Assembly: GCF_006716095.1 (NCBI RefSeq)
Contig: NZ_VFOK01000001.1
Location: 899,375-963,374 of the forward strand
DNA from: Barrientosiimonas humi
GTDB lineage: Bacteria > Actinomycetota > Actinomycetes > Actinomycetales > Dermatophilaceae
Reading direction: 5' to 3'
Length of the DNA stretch: 64,000 nucleotides
Below are positions 7,443 through 60,172 of this stretch, in pieces; positions within the stretch are counted from its first letter, which is position 1, and each line of letters opens with the position of its first letter. Under the pieces are notes generated by a model that saw only the letters and a program-made list of their open reading frames with translations, ran no database searches and was not told the origin of the DNA. Made by a program: the position numbers and the translations under genes.

Positions 7443-7510
7443 CATGAAACCGGGTTAGGTGCATGTGACCCTGATCCAGTGGGGTCAGATGCACCTAACC
7501 CGGTTTCATG
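7443..7510 (+). repeat. Long intergenic hairpin (22 bp perfect plus 6 bp)
   Basis: Left arm 7443-7464 is the exact reverse complement of right arm 7489-7510. After one mismatch six more base pairs form (7466-7471 with 7482-7487), leaving a loop of about 10 nt. The arm includes TGAAACCGGGTTAGGTGCAT. It lies between the GH63-like stop and the gpx promoter. A terminator role is plausible, but there is no T-run. The arm resembles the hairpin at 29791 (shared TGAAAC..GGTTAG). Confidence 0.9.
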
Positions 7511-8026: not shown

Positions 8027-8130
8027 GCGCCGGAGGTCCGTTCCGCTGCTGCGGTGCTCCGCCGGAGGGTGCGCTGAGCCGCACGGTTCTGCGGTGGTCC
8101 GCGAGGGCGTACGCCCGCGGCGGAGCCGCC
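8027..8130 (+). repeat. Diverged copy of the modular GC-rich repeat
   Basis: Positions 8056-8101 read GCTCCGCCGGAGGGTGCGCT, then GAGCCGCACGGTTCTGCGG and TGGTCCG. This follows the type-1 module of the 28265-28698 array with a few substitutions. It continues into CGAGGGCGTACG, the same junction seen at 60160. It is one degenerate copy, downstream of gpx and upstream of dinG, in the same orientation as the other loci. Confidence 0.7.
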
Positions 8131-11513: not shown

Positions 11514-11594
11514 CGACGACGGCGGACCAGAAACCACGACGGCGGCACAGATCAGATCTGTGCCGCCGTCGTCGTACGTGGGCCGCCGTCGTCG
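11514..11594 (+). repeat. Nested double palindrome, element 1
   Basis: The outer arms are CGACGACGGCGG (11514-11525) and its complement at 11583-11594. Inside, an 18-bp inner arm (11536-11553) pairs perfectly with 11555-11572, centred on CAGATCAGATCTG. The left spacer reads CCAGAAACC and the right spacer reads CGTACGTG. The scaffold matches 47713-47787 almost base for base while the centre differs. It lies between convergent holA and the protease gene, so it may terminate both, though there is no T-run. Confidence 0.88.
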
Positions 11595-11621: not shown

Positions 11622-12485
11622 TCAGCCGGCCGTCACGCCGAACGTCGCCAGCCAGTCCTGCACGCCCTGGATGTCGACGCGCTGCATGCCGTCGAGGTAG
11701 CGGCAGTTCTGGGTGTAGCCGTAGCTGGTGACCGTGACGACCTGCCCCTGGTAGAACGTCGGGCCGCCGGAGTCGCCGAAGCAGGACCCGCCGCCGCCGC
11801 GCACGTCGTTCGGGTTGCCGTTGAGCTGCAGGATCTGCGGCGTCAGCTTCTGCCCGGGCGCGGTGGTGTTGCGCCGGATCAGCGGGTAGCTCATCGGCGT
11901 CGGCTTCTGCGGGCCGCTCTCGGGCTTGCGCACCTCGGTGCCGTATCCGACGATCGTGAACAGCGTGTGCGCCAGCTGCGACCGCGGGATCTCGTCCAGC
12001 GTGCCGACGGGAGCGATCTCGGCGGGCTCGATGCCGGTGATCGGCTCGTCGAGCACGATCACGCCGACGTCGTTCCAGTTCGCCATGTCGGTGAAGTCGG
12101 AGTAGTCGGGGTGGCTGTAGGCCGTGCCGATGTACCAACCCTCCTCACCCGCGATGTCCTCGGGCGTGTAGCCGACGGAGGGGTCGGACGCCTCCGGGAT
12201 GCCCGACGGGGGCTCCTCGGCGATGACCGGGTCGAAGGTGACGATCGTCTGGCCGACGGTGCCGCTGGTGCAGTGCGCCGCGGTCAGCAGCACGGTCGGG
12301 CTGACCAGCGTGGCGCTGCAGCGATAACGACCGGTGCCGTCGTAGAACAGGATCAGCCCCACGTTGGGGTGCTGGTTGCCGTCCGGCTCGCCGCCGGTGA
12401 TCGCGGTGGCACGCAGCGCGGGCGCGAACATCATCGCCATGGCCACCAGGATCACGGCGATGAAGCGCCGATAGGTGCGGGTCAC
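11622..12485 (-). CDS. Secreted trypsin-like serine protease
   Basis: 287 residues from GTG 12485, chosen because GGGAG lies 7 nt upstream and a signal peptide follows at once ([18 protein letters not shown], predicted cleavage near ATA). The chymotrypsin-fold triad is complete: His71 in TAAHC, Asp139 in NDVGVI and Ser239 in GDSGGP. ITGGE right after the signal region resembles the activation N-terminus IVGG of S1 proteases, so the mature end may begin near residue 29. It is exported through Sec and released or loosely wall-associated. The physiological substrate is unknown. It is transcribed away from rpsT. Confidence 0.92.
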
Positions 12486-24692: not shown

Positions 24693-25238
24693 ATGCACTG
24701 CCCGTTCTGCCGCCACGACGACTCCCGAGTCGTCGACAGTCGTACGTCCGAGGACGGCACCAGCATCAAGCGGCGCCGCCAGTGCCCGGCCTGCGGCAAG
24801 CGGTTCAGCACCCTGGAGACCGCGAGCCTGACCGTGGTCAAGCGCTCGGGGGCGAGCGAGCCGTTCGCCCGCGGCAAGGTGCTGGCCGGGGTCCGCAAGG
24901 CCTGCCAGGGCCGACCGGTCTCCGACGACGACCTGGCGCTGCTGGCGCAGCAGGTCGAGGAGAGCATCCGCTCCCAGGGGCTGGCCGAGATCGACGCGCA
25001 CGACGTCGGGCTGGAGATCCTGGGGCCGCTGCGCGCGCTGGACGAGGTGGCCTACCTGCGCTTCGCCAGCGTCTACCAGGCCTTCGAGTCCACCGACGAC
25101 TTCGAGACCGCCATCACGCTGCTGCGTGCCGAGCGCGAGGCCGCGGGCGTCGAGCCCGACCGGGCCGAGCGCCCCGCGTCGACCTCGTCGACGGGGCCTG
25201 TCGGTGGTGGCGGCGACGATGAGACCGCCAGCACCTGA
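24693..25238 (+). CDS. nrdR: Transcriptional repressor NrdR
   Basis: 181 residues from ATG 24693, which follows AAGGAGG at ideal spacing; the in-frame upstream ATG 24645 has none. An N-terminal zinc ribbon with Cys3, Cys6, Cys31 and Cys34 (CPFC, CPAC) is followed by an ATP-cone domain (about 46-136) that senses dATP/ATP. It represses ribonucleotide reductase genes when dNTPs are sufficient. The C-terminal 30 residues are low-complexity (Ser/Thr/Gly/Asp) and add to the usual length of about 150. nrdJ follows after 55 nt and the tandem boxes upstream fit autoregulation of the pair. Confidence 0.97.
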
Positions 25239-25293
25239 GCACCACCCCCCGAAGAAACCTGCCGAGCACAAGACACCCACCGGAGGAGCTGTC

Positions 25294-28191
25294 ATGACCG
25301 AGACGACCAGCGCTGGATCCAGGGCCCGTCGCAAGAACAAGGGCCTGAAGATCGAGCGCATCTACACGACCCCGGGCGTCCACCCCTATGACGAGGTGAC
25401 CTGGGAGTCGCGTGATGTCGTCCAGCAGAACTGGAAGACCGGCGAGACCATCTTCGAGCAGCGCGGCGTGGAGTTCCCCGACTTCTGGTCGCTCAACGCC
25501 TCGACCATCGTCACGACGAAGTACTTCCGCGGTGCGCTCGGCACCGACGCGCGCGAGCGCAGCCTGAAGCAGCTCATCGACCGCGTCGTGCTGACCTACG
25601 TCAAGGCCGGCAAGGAGCACGGCTACTTCGCCTCCGACGACGACGCCGACGTCTTCGAGCACGAGCTCACCTACGCCCTGCTGCACCAGGTGTTCTCGTT
25701 CAACTCCCCGGTGTGGTTCAACGTGGGCACCAAGAGCCCGCAGCAGGTCTCGGCGTGCTTCATCCTGTCGGTCGACGACTCGATGGACTCGATCCTCAAC
25801 TGGTACAAGGAGGAGGGGTTCATCTTCAAGGGCGGCTCCGGTGCCGGCCTCAACCTCTCCCGCATCCGCTCGTCCAAGGAGCTGCTGTCCTCCGGCGGCA
25901 CCGCCTCGGGTCCGGTCTCCTTCATGCGCGGCGCCGACGCCAGCGCCGGCACCATCAAGTCCGGTGGCGCCACCCGCCGCGCCGCCAAGATGGTCGTGCT
26001 CGACGTCGACCACCCCGACATCGAGGAGTTCATCGAGACCAAGGCGCGCGAGGAGGACAAGATCCGCGCGCTGCGCGACGCCGGCTTCGACATGGACCTC
26101 GGCGGCAAGGACATCACCTCCGTCCAGTACCAGAACGCCAACAACTCCGTCCGCGTGAGCGACGAGTTCATGCGCGCGGTCGAGGAGGGGACCTCCTTCG
26201 GCCTGCGCGCCCGCGGCACGGGTGAGGTCATCGAGCAGGTCGACGCCCGCGAGCTGTTCGGCAAGCTCAACCAGGCCGCGTGGGAGTGCGCCGACCCGGG
26301 CGTCCAGTACGACGACACCATCAACGCCTGGCACACCAACCCCGAGACCGGCCGCATCACCGCGTCCAACCCGTGCTCGGAGTACATGTCGCTCGACAAC
26401 TCCTCGTGCAACCTGGCGAGCCTGAACCTGCTGAAGTTCCTCAAGGACGACGACACGTTCGACACCGAGACCTTCCAGAAGGTCGCCGAGCTGGTCATCA
26501 CCGCGATGGACATCTCGATCTGCTTCGCCGACTTCCCGACCGAGGCGATCGGCGACACGACCCGCGACTACCGCCAGCTGGGTATCGGCTACGCCAACCT
26601 CGGCGCGCTGCTCATGGCGACCGGTCACGGCTACGAGTCCGAGGGCGGCCGCAGCCTCGCCGCCGCGATCACCTCGCTGCTCACCGGTGCCGCCTACAAG
26701 CGTTCCGCCGAGATCGCCGGCGTGGTCGGCCCGTACGCCGGGTTCGCCCGCAACGCCGAGGCGCACCGCCGCGTCATGCGCAAGCACCAGGCCGCCAACG
26801 ACCAGGTGCGCACGCTCGACGCGATGGACTCCGGCATCCACGCCGCGGCCACCAAGGCGTGGGCCGACGTGATCTCCCTCGGTGAGCGCAACGGCTTCCG
26901 CAACGCCCAGGCGTCGGTGCTCGCGCCCACCGGGACCATCGGCTTCATGATGGACTGCGACACCACCGGCATCGAGCCCGACTTCTCGCTGGTGAAGTTC
27001 AAGAAGCTCGTCGGCGGCGGGTCGATGCAGATCGTCAACCAGACCATCCCGCGCGCCCTGAAGAAGCTCGGCTACCAGCCGGAGCAGATCGAGGCGATCG
27101 TCGAGCACATCGCCGAGAAGGGTCACGTCATCGACGCCCCGGGGCTGAAGACCGAGCACTACGAGGTCTTCGACTGCGCGATGGGCGAGCGGGCGATCAC
27201 GCCCATGGGCCACGTGCGGATGATGGCGGCCTGCCAGCCGTTCCTGTCCGGCGCGATCTCCAAGACCGTCAACCTGCCCGAGACCGCCACCGTCGAGGAC
27301 ATCGCCGAGGTGCACCTCGAGGGCTGGAAGCTCGGCCTCAAGGCGCTCGCGGTCTACCGCGACAACTGCAAGGTCGGCCAGCCGCTGTCCGACGGCAAGA
27401 AGCAGGACAAGCCGGCCGCCACCGAGGAGCCCGTGCTCGAGAAGGTCGTCGAGTACCGCCCGGTCCGCAAGCGGATGCCCAAGCGCCGCAGCAGCCAGGT
27501 GACCTCGTTCGCCGTGGGTGGCGCCGAGGGCTACCTCACCGCCAGCCGGTACGACGACGGCGAGCTCGGCGAGATCTTCCTCAAGCTCGGCAAGCAGGGC
27601 TCCACCCTCGCCGGGATGATGGACGCCTTCTCGCTGGCGATCTCGGTGGCGCTGCAGTACGGCGTGCCGCTGGAGACGTACGTCGAGAAGTTCACGAACA
27701 TGCGGTTCGAGCCGGCCGGCCTGACCGACGACCCGGACGTGCGGATGGCGCAGTCGATCATGGACTACGTCTTCCGTCGCCTGGCGCTGGACCACCTCGA
27801 CTTCGAGACCCGCTCGTTCATGGGCATCCACTCCGCCGAGGAGCGGGCGCGCCAGCTCGAGACCGGTTCGTTCGCCGAGGCCACCAGCGAGAGCGACTCC
27901 GGCGACGACGTGGCCGACGAGCTCGAGGGCTACTCCCAGTCGGCGGCGCCGGCGGTCAAGAAGGCCGAGGCCGAGCAGGCCGACGTCGAGGCAGACGACG
28001 TGAAGTCCGGCTCCGGCGCGGCCGACGTGCGTGAGGTCTCCTCCGAGATCCACTCCTCGGCCGAGCTGATGGAGAAGTTCCAGGGCAAGGCGGCCGACGC
28101 CCCGATGTGCATGACCTGCGGCACGAAGATGCGCCCCGCCGGTTCCTGCTACGTCTGCGAGGGCTGCGGCTCCACCAGCGGCTGCAGCTGA
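25294..28191 (+). CDS. nrdJ: Vitamin B12-dependent ribonucleotide reductase (class II)
   Basis: 965 residues from ATG 25294 (GGAGGAG upstream). It makes deoxyribonucleoside di/triphosphates using adenosylcobalamin to generate the thiyl radical. Visible: SACFILSVDDSMDS with the first redox cysteine (around 150), FKGGSGAGLNLSRIRSS, the NPCSEYM active-site loop with radical cysteine (around 365), LAPTGTIGFMMDCDTTGIEP and a long acidic linker from about 865. The tail contains two CxxC pairs and a final CGSTSGCS, used to re-reduce the active site. It needs no oxygen, so DNA synthesis could continue under low oxygen if cobalamin is present. I found no cobalamin riboswitch; control seems to be by NrdR. 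Confidence 0.98.
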   Translation: MTETTSAGSRARRKNKGLKIERIYTTPGVHPYDEVTWESRDVVQQNWKTGETIFEQRGVEFPDFWSLNASTIVTTKYFRGALGTDARERSLKQLIDRVVLTYVKAGKEHGYFASDDDADVFEHELTYALLHQVFSFNSPVWFNVGTKSPQQVSACFILSVDDSMDSILNWYKEEGFIFKGGSGAGLNLSRIRSSKELLSSGGTASGPVSFMRGADASAGTIKSGGATRRAAKMVVLDVDHPDIEEFIETKAREEDKIRALRDAGFDMDLGGKDITSVQYQNANNSVRVSDEFMRAVEEGTSFGLRARGTGEVIEQVDARELFGKLNQAAWECADPGVQYDDTINAWHTNPETGRITASNPCSEYMSLDNSSCNLASLNLLKFLKDDDTFDTETFQKVAELVITAMDISICFADFPTEAIGDTTRDYRQLGIGYANLGALLMATGHGYESEGGRSLAAAITSLLTGAAYKRSAEIAGVVGPYAGFARNAEAHRRVMRKHQAANDQVRTLDAMDSGIHAAATKAWADVISLGERNGFRNAQASVLAPTGTIGFMMDCDTTGIEPDFSLVKFKKLVGGGSMQIVNQTIPRALKKLGYQPEQIEAIVEHIAEKGHVIDAPGLKTEHYEVFDCAMGERAITPMGHVRMMAACQPFLSGAISKTVNLPETATVEDIAEVHLEGWKLGLKALAVYRDNCKVGQPLSDGKKQDKPAATEEPVLEKVVEYRPVRKRMPKRRSSQVTSFAVGGAEGYLTASRYDDGELGEIFLKLGKQGSTLAGMMDAFSLAISVALQYGVPLETYVEKFTNMRFEPAGLTDDPDVRMAQSIMDYVFRRLALDHLDFETRSFMGIHSAEERARQLETGSFAEATSESDSGDDVADELEGYSQSAAPAVKKAEAEQADVEADDVKSGSGAADVREVSSEIHSSAELMEKFQGKAADAPMCMTCGTKMRPAGSCYVCEGCGSTSGCS

Positions 28192-28225
28192 CGCCGCGAC
28201 CGCGCCCCGCGCGGTCCCGCCCGGC

Positions 28226-28258
28226 CGGCCCCGGCACGCACCCCGCGTGCCGGGGCCG
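28226..28258 (+). terminator. nrdJ terminator
   Basis: A 14-bp perfect stem, CGGCCCCGGCACGC (28226-28239) with 28245-28258, and a 5-nt loop. The repeat array begins 7 nt after it. Confidence 0.75.
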
Positions 28259-28264
28259 ACCCAT

Positions 28265-28698
28265 GTCCGCCGGGAGTGCGGTGGGGTGCACGGTTCGGCG
28301 GTGGTCCGCCGGAGGGTGCGGTGGGGCGCACGGTTCGGCGGTGGTCCGTGCGGGCGTACGGGGCTTGGTCACGCTTGCGCGGTGGTCCGCTGAGAGGTGC
28401 GGTGGGGCGCACGGTGCGGCGGTGGTCCGGGAAGACGGGGGAGTCACGACCTGGCGGTGGTCCGCCGGGGGGTGCGGTGGGGCGCACGGTTCGGCGGTGG
28501 ACCGGGAAGACGGGGGAGTCACGACCTGGCGGAGGACCGCCGGGGAGTGCGGTGGGGCGCACGGTTCGGCGGTGGACCGTGCGGGCGTACGGGGCTTGGT
28601 CACGCTTGCGCGGTGGTCCGCTGAGAGGTGCGGTGGGGCGCACGGTTCGGCGGTGGTCCGGGAAGACGGGGGAGTCACGTCCTGGCGGAGGACCGCCC
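28265..28698 (+). repeat. Modular GC-rich repeat array
   Basis: Eleven modules of three kinds separated by CGGTGG(T/A)CCG or close variants. Type 1 contains GTGCGGTGGGGCGCACGGTT. Type 2 contains TGCGGGCGTACGGGGCTTGG. Type 3 contains GGAAGACGGGGGAGTCACG. The order is 1-1-2-1-3-1-3-1-2-1-3. Type 1 can fold (GTGCG/CGCAC). Copies are near-identical, so the expansion is recent or homogenised. Single or double modules occur at 8056 and 60064. There are no regular spacers, so it is not CRISPR. Frames cross it on both strands but contain only repeat-encoded sequence. Confidence 0.92.
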
Positions 28699-28705
28699 GA
28701 CGTGG

Positions 28706-28723
28706 TTACATAGAGTTATGCAA
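28706..28723 (+). promoter_or_regulatory. AT-rich inverted repeat upstream of the CDO operon
   Basis: TTACATA-GAGT-TATGCAA, arms identical except one base. It is the most AT-rich spot for hundreds of bases and includes TAGAGT as a possible -10. A third half-site TATGTA follows at 28739-28744. It looks like a regulator's operator; the regulator is unknown. Confidence 0.5.
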
Positions 28724-28942
28724 AACAAAGCACGCGATTATGTACGGCGGGGGCCGTGCCTGCGTGCGCCCGGCGGCCGGGTCTACCTCCCGCACCGCCG
28801 GATCCACCTCGATCTGCAGCTGCGCCTCGGCCTGGTCTGTCGCGAGCGTCCGCACGCCCGCCACCACCAGACCTCGAAGGAGCAGTCCCATGACCACGAT
28901 CCACCGTGCCCTGCCGACCGGCCTGGCACCCGCCGACCCTGA
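28718..28942 (+). CDS. Candidate leader ORF with HxDL...CR motif (sulfur-operon leader type)
   Basis: A 74-codon frame from ATG 28718 that ends 53 nt inside the cysteine dioxygenase gene in another frame. Its middle, HRRIHLDLQLRLGLVCR (28793-28843), matches from memory the motif of short actinobacterial 'putative leader peptides' found before sulfur genes (R-x-H-x-D-L ... C-R, same spacing from His to Cys-Arg). Those peptides are usually shorter and do not overlap the next gene, and no closer start codon is visible here. It may act as a cysteine-sensitive attenuator or translational coupler. A chance frame cannot be excluded. Confidence 0.45.
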   Translation: MQNKARDYVRRGPCLRAPGGRVYLPHRRIHLDLQLRLGLVCRERPHARHHQTSKEQSHDHDPPCPADRPGTRRP

Positions 28943-29369
28943 CGAGCTGCTGCGTCTCACGCTGCTGCTCGCCCACGACGAGCGCCTGCCCGAGCTGCTC
29001 GACCTGACCTCTCCCGAGCGCAGCTGGACCCGGCTCGAGGCCACCGACCTGATGGAGGTCTGGCTCATCGGCTGGCCGCCCGGCACCGCGACCGGTTGGC
29101 ACGACCACCAGGGATCCAGCGGCGCGTTCCGGGTCGTCCACGGCGCGCTGACCGAGCACACCTGGGACCGCGGCCCGCGCACCCGCGACCTCGCCCGCGG
29201 CGAGGGGCGCTCGTTCGCGGCCTCGCACGTGCACGACGTGCGCAACGAGGGGTCGACCGCGGCGGTGTCGGTGCACGCCTACGCGCCGGCGCTGCGCGGG
29301 ATGACGCGGTACGCCGTCGCGGGCGGAGCGCTCGTGCGCCAGCAGGTCGAGCGGGCCGGCCAGTGGTGA
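28890..29369 (+). CDS. Cysteine dioxygenase-like cupin
   Basis: 159 residues from ATG 28890 (AAGGAG upstream). The longer upstream frame runs through the repeat array and is discounted. Cupin iron ligands are HDH (His71, His73) in TGWHDHQGSSGAFRVVHG, plus His113 or His115 in ASHVHDVRNEG. Family enzymes oxidise cysteine to cysteine sulfinate with iron and oxygen. The sequence has no cysteine, so no Cys-Tyr crosslink is possible, as is usual for bacterial CDO. The stop overlaps the start of a rhodanese gene (GTGA), a pairing known from other actinobacteria. Confidence 0.88.
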   Translation: MTTIHRALPTGLAPADPDELLRLTLLLAHDERLPELLDLTSPERSWTRLEATDLMEVWLIGWPPGTATGWHDHQGSSGAFRVVHGALTEHTWDRGPRTRDLARGEGRSFAASHVHDVRNEGSTAAVSVHAYAPALRGMTRYAVAGGALVRQQVERAGQW

Positions 29370-31996: not shown

Positions 31997-32602
31997 GTGC
32001 TGGGGGAGCTGCTCCAGGCGTACGCCGACCCCGGCCGGGGCTATCACGACCAGGAGCACCTGCGCGAGGTGCTGGAGCGGGTCGACGAGCTGGCCGCCGC
32101 CGACCCGCGCCCGCTCGACCTCGACGTGATTCGCCTGGCGGCGTTCTTCCACGACGCCGTCTATCGCACCGGTCCGCCGGAGCCGGACGGGGCGGACGCG
32201 CAGCCGTCGAACGAGGAGGCCTCTGCCCGCTGGGCCGAGCGTGCCCTCGGCCACGAGCCGCAGCTCGCCGCGCGCGTGGCCGGGTTGGTGCGCGCCACGA
32301 CCACCCACGAGGCCCCGTCCGACGACGCCGAGGCCGCCGTGCTGCTGGACGCCGACCTGGCGATCCTCGCGGCCCCGCCCGAGCGCTACGCCCGCTACGC
32401 CGCCGGCGTGCGCCGGGAGTACGCCTGGGTCGCCGCGCCCGACTTCCGCGCCGGCCGTGCCCGGGTGCTGCGCGACCTGGCGAGCCGGGAGCGGATCTAC
32501 CGCACGGCGTACGCCCGCGCCCGCTGGGAGGGTCCGGCCCGGGCCAACCTCGCGGCCGAGCTGGACGACCTCGAAACTCCCAAGAATGATCGAGACGGAT
32601 AG
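31997..32602 (+). CDS. HD-superfamily metal-dependent phosphohydrolase
   Basis: 201 residues from GTG 31997. Metal ligands are YHDQEHL (His at about 16 and 20), FFHDAVY (HD pair) and a later DADLAIL aspartate, the layout of predicted HD hydrolases of COG4339 type. Coding-like sequence continues upstream in frame to about 31943 (PFDSWWPLRDRAV), and homologs usually start with such a segment. Between the previous stop and 31997 there is no ATG, GTG, TTG or CTG apart from a mid-segment CTG. The true start may therefore be a rare codon such as ATC 31946, overlapping the previous gene. The substrate is unknown. Confidence 0.8.
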   Translation: MLGELLQAYADPGRGYHDQEHLREVLERVDELAAADPRPLDLDVIRLAAFFHDAVYRTGPPEPDGADAQPSNEEASARWAERALGHEPQLAARVAGLVRATTTHEAPSDDAEAAVLLDADLAILAAPPERYARYAAGVRREYAWVAAPDFRAGRARVLRDLASRERIYRTAYARARWEGPARANLAAELDDLETPKNDRDG

Positions 32603-32639
32603 GCACGCCGGTCCGCCTCGATCATTCTCGGGTGTTTCG
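32572..32639 (+). repeat. Long convergent hairpin
   Basis: Arms 32572-32594 and 32617-32639 pair over 23 positions with one mismatch and one G.U (right arm ends TCATTCTCGGGTGTTTCG). The last codons and stop of the HD gene lie within it, and the quinone oxidoreductase gene ends 3 nt beyond. Probably terminates both. Confidence 0.88.
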
Positions 32640-39382: not shown

Positions 39383-39512
39383 GGTCAAGAGCGCCAGCGC
39401 CAAGTCCCGGCTCGCTGGCCGGCAACCCTCCACCGCGGTGGGGTGCCCCGGGAACAGACCTGGCCGGTGCTCGACGGGAGGGCCCGGCAAGCGCGGGCGC
39501 AGAGTCCCTGAA
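39383..39512 (+). ncRNA. SAM-IV riboswitch upstream of metY
   Basis: GTCAAGAGCGCCAGCG, then CCCGGCTCGCTGGCCGGCAA, CCCTCC, GCGGTGGGGTGCCCCGGG and a later AGTCCCTGAA pseudoknot strand. This is the actinobacterial SAM-IV pattern. TACGCT at 39370 is a fitting -10. High S-adenosylmethionine should lower expression of the downstream sulfhydrylase. The second copy is at 56490. Confidence 0.9.
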
Positions 39513-46173: not shown

Positions 46174-46229
46174 GAGTGGTCACTCGTTGCCGGTGCTGAC
46201 GCCGCGCAACCCGCAACGAGTGACCACTC
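46174..46229 (+). repeat. Convergent hairpin, 17-bp perfect stem
   Basis: GAGTGGTCACTCGTTGC (46174-46190) pairs exactly with 46213-46229, with a 22-nt loop. Lies between the convergent hrpA and methyltransferase-fusion genes. No T-run. Confidence 0.88.
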
Positions 46230-47712: not shown

Positions 47713-47787
47713 CGACGGCGGCCCAGAAACCACGACGGCGGACCACGTAATAAGTGGTCCGCCGTCGTACGAGCTGTGCCGCCGTCG
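47713..47787 (+). repeat. Nested double palindrome, element 3
   Basis: Outer arms CGACGGCGG (47713-47721) and 47779-47787. The inner 15-bp arms ACGACGGCGGACCAC (47732-47746) and 47754-47768 close on GTAATAA. The left spacer CCCAGAAACC and the TCGTACG on the right repeat element 1. Unlike that one it lies between two divergent genes, so transcription termination cannot be its main job here. Confidence 0.88.
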
Positions 47788-51224: not shown

Positions 51225-52445
51225 TCAGTTGTTCTGGCCTCGGCCGTCGTCGTTGCTCTGCCAGGACGAACCCTGCGTCGGGTTGTTGCCCTGCTGCCAC
51301 GGCTTCTGGTCGTCCTGCACCGGGGTGGCGCGGGTGGCCTGGTCGTGCACGTCGTCGCCGCCGCCCTCGACCGGTCGGACCGCCTGCGTGGGGGCGTCGT
51401 GGTCGCCGGACTGCCCGGTGCCCTCGCCCTGGCCGTAACCCTGGCCGAGCCCGCCCTGGTTGCCCTGCTGGCCCTGGTCGAAACCGCCCTGGCCGTAACC
51501 GGACTGGCCGCCCTGCTGGCCGTAGCCGGACTGGCCCTGGTCGAAACCGCCCTGGCCGTAGCCGGACTGACCGCCCTGCTGGCCGTAGCCCTGGCCCTGG
51601 TCGTAACCCTGCTGGCCGTAGCCGGACTGGCCGTAGCCGGACTGGCCCTGGTCGTAACCGCCCTGGCCGTATCCGGACTGACCGGCCTGCTGGCCGTAAC
51701 CCTGCTGGCCGTAGCCGCCCTGGCCCTGGTCGTAACCCTGCTGGCCGTAGCCACCCTGGCCGTAGCCGGACTGGCCCTGGTCGTAACCGCCCTGGCCGTA
51801 TCCGGACTGACCGGCCTGCTGGCCGTAACCCTGCTGGCCGTAGCCGCCCTGGCCCTGGTCGTAGCCCTGCTGGCCGTAGCCGCCCTGGCCGTAACCGGCG
51901 CCGCCGGCGTAGCCGTACTGACCCTGGTTCTGGTCGTAGCCGCCCTGCGTCGCGGGCTGAGCCTTCTTGCCGCGCATCAGCGAGAACGCGATGAGGGCGA
52001 GGCCGGCCAGCAGCAGGATCGGGCCGAGGATGAGGCCGAGCATGCGCATGGCGCCGCCACCGATGTTGTCGGCGCGCGGGCCGGCGAACAGGTTGCCGGA
52101 GCTGCCGTCGCACTGGACGGTGTAGGCGCCGGCGCCGAGGCCGTCGGTGCTGCGGGCGATCTCGTAGTAGGTGCTGCCGTCGGCCTCCACGGAGAAGTCG
52201 GAGGCGGGCCGGCCGAGCGTCGTGGCGTTGCCGTTCTGCTCGGCGGTGCAGGTGGAGCTGGCACGGGCGCCCTGCTCGGTGCTGAACACCGAGAAGCCGG
52301 CGTCCTCGGCGTTGATCGACTGTCCGTTCTGGAACGGGTTGAGCTTGACGCCACCGCCGGACATCAGCCCGACCACCAGCAGGACGAGCCCGATCAGGGC
52401 GAGCGCGGCACCGATCCCGAGGGGGGCCTTCGAAGACTTGGACAT
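51225..52445 (-). CDS. Two-span membrane protein with Gly/Tyr/Gln repeat tail
   Basis: 406 residues. Membrane helix 10-29, an external domain of about 100 residues with Cys66 and Cys112 (possible disulfide), and a second helix 135-157. A cytoplasmic tail follows. Residues 166-345 are built of YGQ, GYDQ and QSGYGQ units, nearly free of charge apart from Asp; a 43-residue unit occurs in direct tandem at 188-230 and 231-273 with a partial third. The composition resembles [G/S]Y[G/S]Q domains of FUS-type proteins. The promoter TAGGTT lies 6 nt before ATG 52445, inside sufE. Function unknown. Confidence 0.88.
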
Positions 52446-56489: not shown

Positions 56490-56623
56490 CGTCAAGAGTC
56501 TCAGCGACAAGCCCCGGCTGGCTGAGCGGCAACCCTCCACCGCGGTGGGGTGCCCCGGGTGAGGACAAGGTCGGCGACGCCGTCGACAAGCGCGGGGCAG
56601 CGACAGGTGCGAGCCCCCTGACC
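56490..56623 (+). ncRNA. SAM-IV riboswitch upstream of metX
   Basis: CGTCAAGAGTCTCAGCG, CCCCGGCTGGCTGAGCGGCAA, CCCTCC, GCGGTGGGGTGCCCCGGGTG and a terminal GAGCCCCCTGACC strand. The core is identical to the element at 39383. TAGCGT (56478-56483) is a suitable -10. The 3' end lies 13 nt before the start codon, so translation control is likely. Confidence 0.9.
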
Positions 56624-60063: not shown

Positions 60064-60172
60064 CTGGTCCGCGCGGGCGTGCGGGCACGCGGGCCGGTCA
60101 CGCTTCGGCGGTGGACCGCCGGGGGGTGCGGTGGGGCGCACGGTTCGGCGGTGGACCGCGAGGGCGTGCGGG
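60064..60172 (+). repeat. Modular GC-rich repeat, two-module copy
   Basis: A type-2-like module (GTCCGCGCGGGCGTGCGGGC to GTCACGCTTCGG), CGGTGGACCG, a perfect type-1 module (GTGCGGTGGGGCGCACGGTT) and CGGTGGACCG again, ending in CGAGGGCGTGCGGGC. Same orientation as the 28-kb array. It lies between sigA and the end of the transglutaminase gene. Confidence 0.88.

Follow-up and report, generated by a model that had tools for sequence, protein, structure and literature searches.

The array and its surroundings

The window analysed here is a stretch of 64,000 nt of the Barrientosiimonas humi genome. Between a putative nrdJ-like ribonucleotide reductase ORF and a putative cysteine-dioxygenase-like gene, both named from a sequence-only reading, it holds a tandem array of hairpins that was picked up independently by a repeat finder and by TRF. 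The features discussed below all lie on the + strand:

25126–28191, + strand: putative nrdJ-like ribonucleotide reductase ORF (predicted start), upstream of the array
28223–28261, + strand: 17-nt inverted repeat in the nrdJ–array interval, 94% complementary, without a T run; possible terminator
28265–28698, + strand: tandem hairpin array of six 36-nt palindromic units (module 1), two type 2 spacers and three type 3 spacers
28287–28360, + strand: 74-nt dimer, two inverted palindromes around a unit; top R1 covariance-model match within the array (82.0 bits)
28297–28466, + strand: 170-nt block, repeated at 28528–28697 with 95% identity; trace of a tandem duplication
28306–28341, + strand: reference 36-nt unit CCGC-N28-GCGG; identical 36-mer at loci 1602k, 2819k and 2970k
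28346–28382 and 28577–28613, + strand: spacer module type 2, from splitting at the joints
28427–28457, 28502–28532 and 28658–28688, + strand: spacer module type 3, from splitting at the joints
28890–29369, + strand: putative cysteine-dioxygenase-like gene (159 aa), downstream of the array
8040–8113, + strand: single dimer of the array family, 74 nt, 77.5 bits, flanked by two + strand genes
60097–60170, + strand: single dimer of the array family, 74 nt, 82.6 bits, in a convergent gap

Splitting the array at its conserved joints exactly reproduced the architecture reported in the initial annotation, with eleven modules in the order 1-1-2-1-3-1-3-1-2-1-3 and eleven joints. The modules measure, in this order, 44, 40, 41, 40, 35, 40, 35, 40, 41, 40 and 35 nt. 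Module 1 is a 36-nt hairpin, CCGC-N28-GCGG, with the common form CCGCCGGRGG GTGCG GTGGGG CGCAC GGTTCGGCGG; the first copy in the array has 35 nt and the other five have 36 nt. The hairpin is flanked by 4-nt linkers, which are TGGT, TGGA or AGGA in the window array and TCCT, TTGT and others at other loci. Including its linker, module 1 is 40 nt long at nearly all loci listed, under a joint splitting that imposes no constraint on length. Each joint read across the linker forms a 34-nt palindrome. A single locus therefore spans 74 nt and comprises two palindromes in inverted orientation, separated by a 6-nt spacer.

Three module types had been proposed. Module 1 is indeed a general unit, whereas modules 2 and 3 are locus-specific spacers, that is, the stretch between two dimers with half-palindromes at its borders, which differs from locus to locus and is repeated within a locus. 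CRISPR, which has unique spacers of regular size, was rejected because the spacer modules recur within the locus, as the annotation had done already. An integron attC site, with its core site GTTRRRY, was rejected as well, since this core is absent from the array and its 1.5 kb flanks, where 2.2 occurrences are expected by chance. Recombination or slippage at the joint, the earlier explanation of the mixed module order, was a sensible lead, but nested tandem duplications would explain this order more simply, as the two 170-nt blocks suggest.

The array was also thought to separate an nrdJ terminator from the promoter of a CDO operon. Consensus scans of 27800–29200 yielded no intrinsic terminator (a GC hairpin plus a T run) and no sigma-70 promoter; what had been read as the terminator is the 17-nt inverted repeat. 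No Rfam family reached its gathering score at the window loci. Folded as single-stranded DNA, the array attained −121.3 kcal/mol (z −4.5) and its complement −92.8 kcal/mol (z −3.8).

Distribution in the genome

The array is one of 36 or more loci of its kind in the B. humi genome, of which 34 are chromosomal. The consensus pattern with up to three mismatches occurred at 58 forward and 41 reverse sites genome-wide, versus none for the backward control, which contradicts a local duplication only. The further copies that had been reported near 8056–8101 and 60064–60172 are present as the two 74-nt dimers of the window. BLAST against the genome returned 68 matches (E up to 10). With a covariance model derived from a single dimer of each locus, a search of both strands gave at least 146 matches. 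As this model search scored 150 of 12,999 candidates, the census of loci is a lower bound, biased to this subfamily. The locus set was defined by 80 units that deviate from a fixed template at one position at most and make up 34 loci, and was extended by two loci from the model search; template matches with more mismatches and weaker BLAST places were left out. In one convergent gap, we also noted a lone, fully symmetric 36-nt unit at C1:3302561–3302634.

All 34 loci first examined lie outside predicted genes and both added loci lie between predicted genes, with predicted gene ends overlapping four loci by 2–26 nt. The 36 loci occupy 17 convergent, 14 tandem and 4 divergent gaps and one unassigned gap, while the 91 other gaps of at least 60 bp in the fetched stretches comprise 11 convergent, 55 tandem and 25 divergent ones. 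Convergent gaps are thus enriched among the loci (17 of 35 vs. 11 of 91), in a comparison where genes were called by a codon-usage script, not taken from annotation, and background genes were scored slightly more strictly. Of the 35 loci whose flanking genes were both called, 30 have a same-strand gene that ends upstream.

Units are more alike within loci (identity 0.938, 90 pairs) than between loci (0.807, 561 locus pairs; maximum of 2000 permutations 0.863), which suggests that unit and spacer have been duplicated together, locally and in tandem. One locus has 13 joints.

The placement at the 3' ends of genes and in convergent gaps might be explained by elements that act as RNA, in the form of 3' UTR hairpins, of U-less terminators working in one or both directions, or of mRNA stabilisers, and that are selected via the transcript. 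Sense-strand G-U pairs and stable RNA folds are in line with this, as are several lone hairpins in two related genomes (G057 and G004, described below), which on visual inspection are no more than tens of bases away from stop codons. However, the scanned region around the window array contains no T-run terminator, and 13 joints at a single locus go beyond what a terminator needs. Moreover, a separate hairpin of at least 10 bp occurs at 4 of the 49 array-facing gene ends and at 9 of the 90 other ends. These rates are alike, and hence the arrays neither follow nor replace such hairpins. Together with the orientation data presented next, this makes an action as RNA unlikely.

Orientation relative to replication

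Our results show that, of the 34 loci on the chromosome, 32 point in the direction of replication (binomial p 7e-8). Orientation was first set by G excess, and for the two added loci by the better-scoring model strand. The gene dnaA lies at C1:3194885 and the terminus was assumed to lie directly opposite, at 1.50 Mb. Since the interval from 1.15 to 1.60 Mb is free of loci of the set, the exact terminus site within it is immaterial. The agreement holds for 16 of 16 loci in convergent gaps, 12 of 13 in tandem gaps, 3 of 4 in divergent gaps and the one in the unassigned gap, with loci 825k and 1839k as the exceptions. Placement and orientation are therefore not random. The initial annotation described all copies as sharing one orientation, downstream of a + strand gene, and this is accurate within the window, whereas genome-wide the orientation flips with the replichore.

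These data bear directly on an action as RNA. Convergent gaps are neutral with respect to gene direction, and there the orientation follows replication without exception. Genes oppose the direction of replication at just two tandem loci, and these split 1:1 in orientation.

An alternative explanation might be that only neutral DNA processes are at work: chance palindromes, symmetry maintained by template-switch correction (quasipalindromes), amplification by slippage, and strand-biased mutation that generates the orientation. The homogenisation within loci and the one-sided C-G to T-G changes on the leading-sense strand are both consistent with this explanation. Since the units are near-palindromic, strand-biased mutation might indeed mimic the lock, and for this reason the units of 32 loci were compared in the replication sense regardless of their G content. 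Locus pairs sharing units at up to two mismatches were co-oriented in 63 cases and anti-oriented in none, and 35 of the 63 were between replichores, i.e. on opposite strands. The corresponding counts were 105 vs. 1 at up to three and 148 vs. 2 at up to four mismatches, where the locus pairs counted are non-independent events. An exact asymmetric 36-mer is common to 16 locus pairs, all of them co-oriented and 9 of them between replichores, and two 36-mers occur unchanged at five and four loci, respectively, on both replichores. Such co-oriented sharing across replichores indicates that the asymmetry was inherited, and not re-created at each locus. In addition, the leading-sense strand of the arrays has a GC skew of 0.243, nine times the value of 0.027 for the remaining intergenic DNA in the stretches analysed. 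The shared asymmetric 36-mers, the skew and the preferred spacing in two other genera (see below) all argue against neutral processes only, which we consider improbable.

The leading-sense strand, which equals the lagging-strand template, folds more stably than its complement at 29 of 32 loci, with RNA as well as DNA parameters. The orientation lock to replication is established in the focal genome only.

Hairpins in two other genera

The relatives searched included no genome of the same genus. A model search of 119 genomes of the family, which scored 41 candidates per genome under strict filters, gave matches above 38 bits only in B. humi among the candidates scored. Weak matches of 32–37 bits in G057, G123 and G015 led us to look more closely at the sequences of the relatives, and G057 and G004, which belong to two other genera, proved to carry hairpins of matching length. 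Exact pairs of GTCCGC and GCGGAC had a spacing of 28 in 19 of 22 cases in G004 (232 kb) and in 9 of 14 cases in G057 (358 kb), versus 0 or 1 each at this spacing for four control word pairs. The exact form GTCCGC-N28-GCGGAC was absent from 60-kb samples of G015 and G010 and from 288 kb of B. humi sequence. The B. humi copies have the CCGC-N28-GCGG core in common with the relatives, while the bases outside the core are usually unpaired. As only the core is common to B. humi and the relatives, homology rests on length, ends and palindromy. The 60 elements of the three genera align without a gap.

In G004, five tandem arrays occur in 232 kb (3, 6, 5, 3 and 2 copies; period 62–64; one copy with one mismatch), and a lone palindrome adjoins nrdJ. 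In the stretches compared, contig C20 of G004 is collinear, in reverse, with 899–962 kb and 1025–1081 kb of B. humi. At the positions corresponding to the window loci, the nrdJ side has a related palindrome, inspection by eye showed none at the 907k position, and the sequence at the 959k position includes a run of N. Copies in G057 are dispersed and include a GTCAGC variant. No Rfam family reached its gathering score for the hairpins at 5 loci of the relatives. A tandem repeat of 57 nt (3.2 copies) at 11953–12133 of L212 in G004 is unlike the hairpin arrays.

The orientation in G004 was read in two ways. Units show a G excess on the predicted leading strand at 5 of 6 loci, with 22k as the exception; loci 22k, 188k and 219k lie outside the collinear stretch tested. 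By sequence similarity, the units at 219k run counter to those of loci 22k and 32k, and the other comparisons were close calls. This conflict between similarity and G excess is why we state the lock for the focal genome alone.

In 119 genomes of the family and 394 of the class, the joint pattern had 89 matches per strand in B. humi and 1–10 matches in 2 other family and 17 other class genomes, which by eye are unrelated tandem repeats. The pattern demands the B. humi joint and misses the G004 arrays, and hence these counts are no proof that the class of elements is absent elsewhere. A pattern scan of a named genome collection, which may omit B. humi, gave no matches, and a protein scan of it found one Pedococcus relative. 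The plasmid search returned a single weak match, from Streptomyces (66.8%, covering 53% of the query), and phages and viral contigs returned none.

Covariation of the stem pairs

Within the focal genome, covariation did not exceed that of shuffles. Across the three genera, with 60 elements and 11 inner pairs, covariation was 0.409; shuffling gave 0.216, with none of 500 shuffles reaching the observed value, and sliding gave no more than 0.163. All 11 inner pairs have changed on both sides. The elements of the relatives were chosen by their outer six bases, which do not enter into this count, and their orientation was set by the excess of G and T. The two measures least prone to inflation by relatedness gave weak results: 11 pairs changed on both sides vs. 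9.8 when shuffled (reached in 23 of 500), and 34 further pair types vs. 31.9 (reached in 104 of 500). For G057 alone, covariation was 0.355 vs. 0.223 when shuffled (1 of 500), and on these two measures the observed value was reached in 111 and 60 of 500 shuffles. Covariation across genera agrees with an action as RNA, and the weak outcome of the more robust measures agrees with neutral DNA processes.

The preferred spacing predicts a protein that recognises the element. Possibly, the elements are binding sites, with half-sites at fixed spacing, for a nucleoid factor, gyrase, or a replication or segregation factor, and a fork-polar function selects their orientation, for instance as a hairpin for lagging-strand priming or pausing. 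The half-site spacing of 28 with a variable inner sequence in the two other genera, the 36-nt unit and the orientation lock in B. humi, and the convergent gaps, where supercoiling stress is expected, would all be consistent with such sites. Yet, the inner arms change and still stay paired, which a site bound as duplex does not need, and in G004, where by similarity the 219k units oppose those of 22k and 32k, the orientation may not be uniform. Protein-binding sites thus seem quite unlikely.

Partner proteins

The initial annotation saw no associated protein, and this holds for the two families tested. The Y1 (RAYT-type) transposase PF01797 had no match in the B. humi genome, while control matches were obtained in 5 of 14 genomes. 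Among the 119 genomes of the family, PF01797 occurs in 4, all less than 90% complete, and in none of the 101 high-quality genomes.

A complete DUF222 gene (31.4 bits; C1:822966–825011), part of which we take from its sequence to be an HNH domain, adjoins the 825k array. At 1032k, an inverted relative of the 825k array, the adjoining 86 bp (C1:1032277–1032362) match the 3' end of this gene at 96.5%. A complete DUF222 gene is therefore found beside 1 of the 36 loci and a DUF222 remnant beside one more. DUF222 as a general partner was rejected, because even the best model match within 1.5 kb of the other 5 DUF222 genes is weak (16.8 bits, E 0.11).

Comparison with known repeat families

Repetitive extragenic palindromes are 20–40 bp long and occur in many extragenic copies, and with 36 nt and 80 copies at 34 loci, plus two loci, the B. 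humi unit is of this kind. In E. coli, BIMEs consist of two inverted palindromes plus a linker, are extragenic and often form consecutive tandem copies (PMC8266576). The B. humi array has the same build, with inverted palindromes, a short linker, tandem copies and an extragenic position, but differs in that no Y1 transposase was found and the GTAG tag is almost absent. A replication-locked orientation as found here is not described for BIMEs in the available part of PMC8266576.

The GTAG and CGTC REPs are extragenic, lie between unidirectional or convergent genes and have G-T pairs in their stems; their large clusters consist of tandemly repeated dimers together with flanking DNA that varies in length, and the CGTC REPs have no dedicated transposase (Di Nocera et al., 2013; PMC3733652). 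The main text of that study contains no word starting with actinobacter- or actinomycet-. Our elements resemble these REPs, as far as the available text describes them, in size, extragenic placement, tandem dimers with variable flanks and G-T pairs. In contrast to these superfamilies, GTAG and CGTC each occur in 1 of 80 copies within 6 nt of the unit ends; G004 hairpins often do contain CGTC, but there it pairs with GACG. Like REPINs, the elements form an inverted doublet able to fold into one long hairpin, but no RAYT-type (Y1) gene was found with them.

The mycobacterial MIRU and VNTR loci are likewise tandem repeats between actinobacterial genes, some tens of bases in length. Compared by description, they share the intergenic tandem arrangement, whereas the elements described here have a palindromic 36-nt geometry.

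The initial annotation had offered a REP/MIRU-like element, an RNA structure or a binding platform. Of these, REP/BIME-like repeats are the best reading, which we favour by a modest degree, and the RNA and binding options are the rival readings weighed above. Since there is no Y1 transposase and the GTAG and CGTC tags are nearly absent, the array is not a member of the described superfamilies, and we therefore write REP/BIME-like. No published description of the element was found in titles and abstract openings among open-licence full texts.

Possible origin

Tandem amplification and dispersal follow from the sequence. A 36-nt palindrome with conserved ends, CCGC-N28-GCGG, has been dispersed over the extragenic DNA, in most cases to the 3' end of a gene. 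It was then multiplied, along with some adjoining DNA, by tandem duplication on the spot, which gave arrays of unit, spacer, unit and spacer, in which the copies are alike within a locus.

The dispersal itself may have involved folded single-stranded DNA that left or entered the lagging-strand template, in the manner of IS200/IS605. If so, orientation would be set at insertion. Precedents for single-strand spread are IS200/IS605 and the TnpA_REP enzymes, and IS200/IS605 transposition uses the lagging-strand template (PMC6006769, PMC8266576, available parts; for the template, PMC6006769). Such template use would predict an orientation bias like that in B. humi, and it is from the orientation and these precedents that we infer single-strand spread. 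Unlike IS200/IS605 elements, those described here have no coding sequence, no ends or target site were identified for them, and no Y1 enzyme was found. The BIMEs, on their part, are bound by gyrase, IHF or DNA polymerase I.

A more specific proposal would be a fixed-length class of actinobacterial hairpins, with the core CCGC-N28-GCGG and the form GTCCGC-N28-GCGGAC in two genera, which is either handled as a folded single strand by a recombinase other than Y1 or used as a polar site of lagging-strand replication, and which in the focal genome has spread almost only in one fork orientation. We offer this proposal tentatively and consider it rather doubtful as a whole. If true, it would extend REP/BIME-like repeats to an actinobacterial family, with the presumed spreading enzyme in 4 of 119 genomes and not in B. 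humi, and would provide a clean replication-orientation signal for testing single-strand dissemination.

Other repeats and RNAs in the window

Very long, near-perfect hairpins occur at 7446–7507, 32579–32632 and 46174–46229 of the window (arms of 26, 21 and 22 nt, respectively), with sequences unlike the array. Two further hairpins, at 11536–11572 and 47732–47768, have the common ends ACGACGGCGG...CCGCCGTCGT and are preceded by CCAGAAACC; this ACGACGGCGG family has two copies, both in the window, and no further ones in the part of the B. humi genome examined. The window also contains two SAM-IV riboswitches (39383–39499 and 56490–56598) and, at 51574–51898, a tandem repeat with a period of 129 (2.5 copies, 95% matches) that is surrounded by repeats of shorter period.
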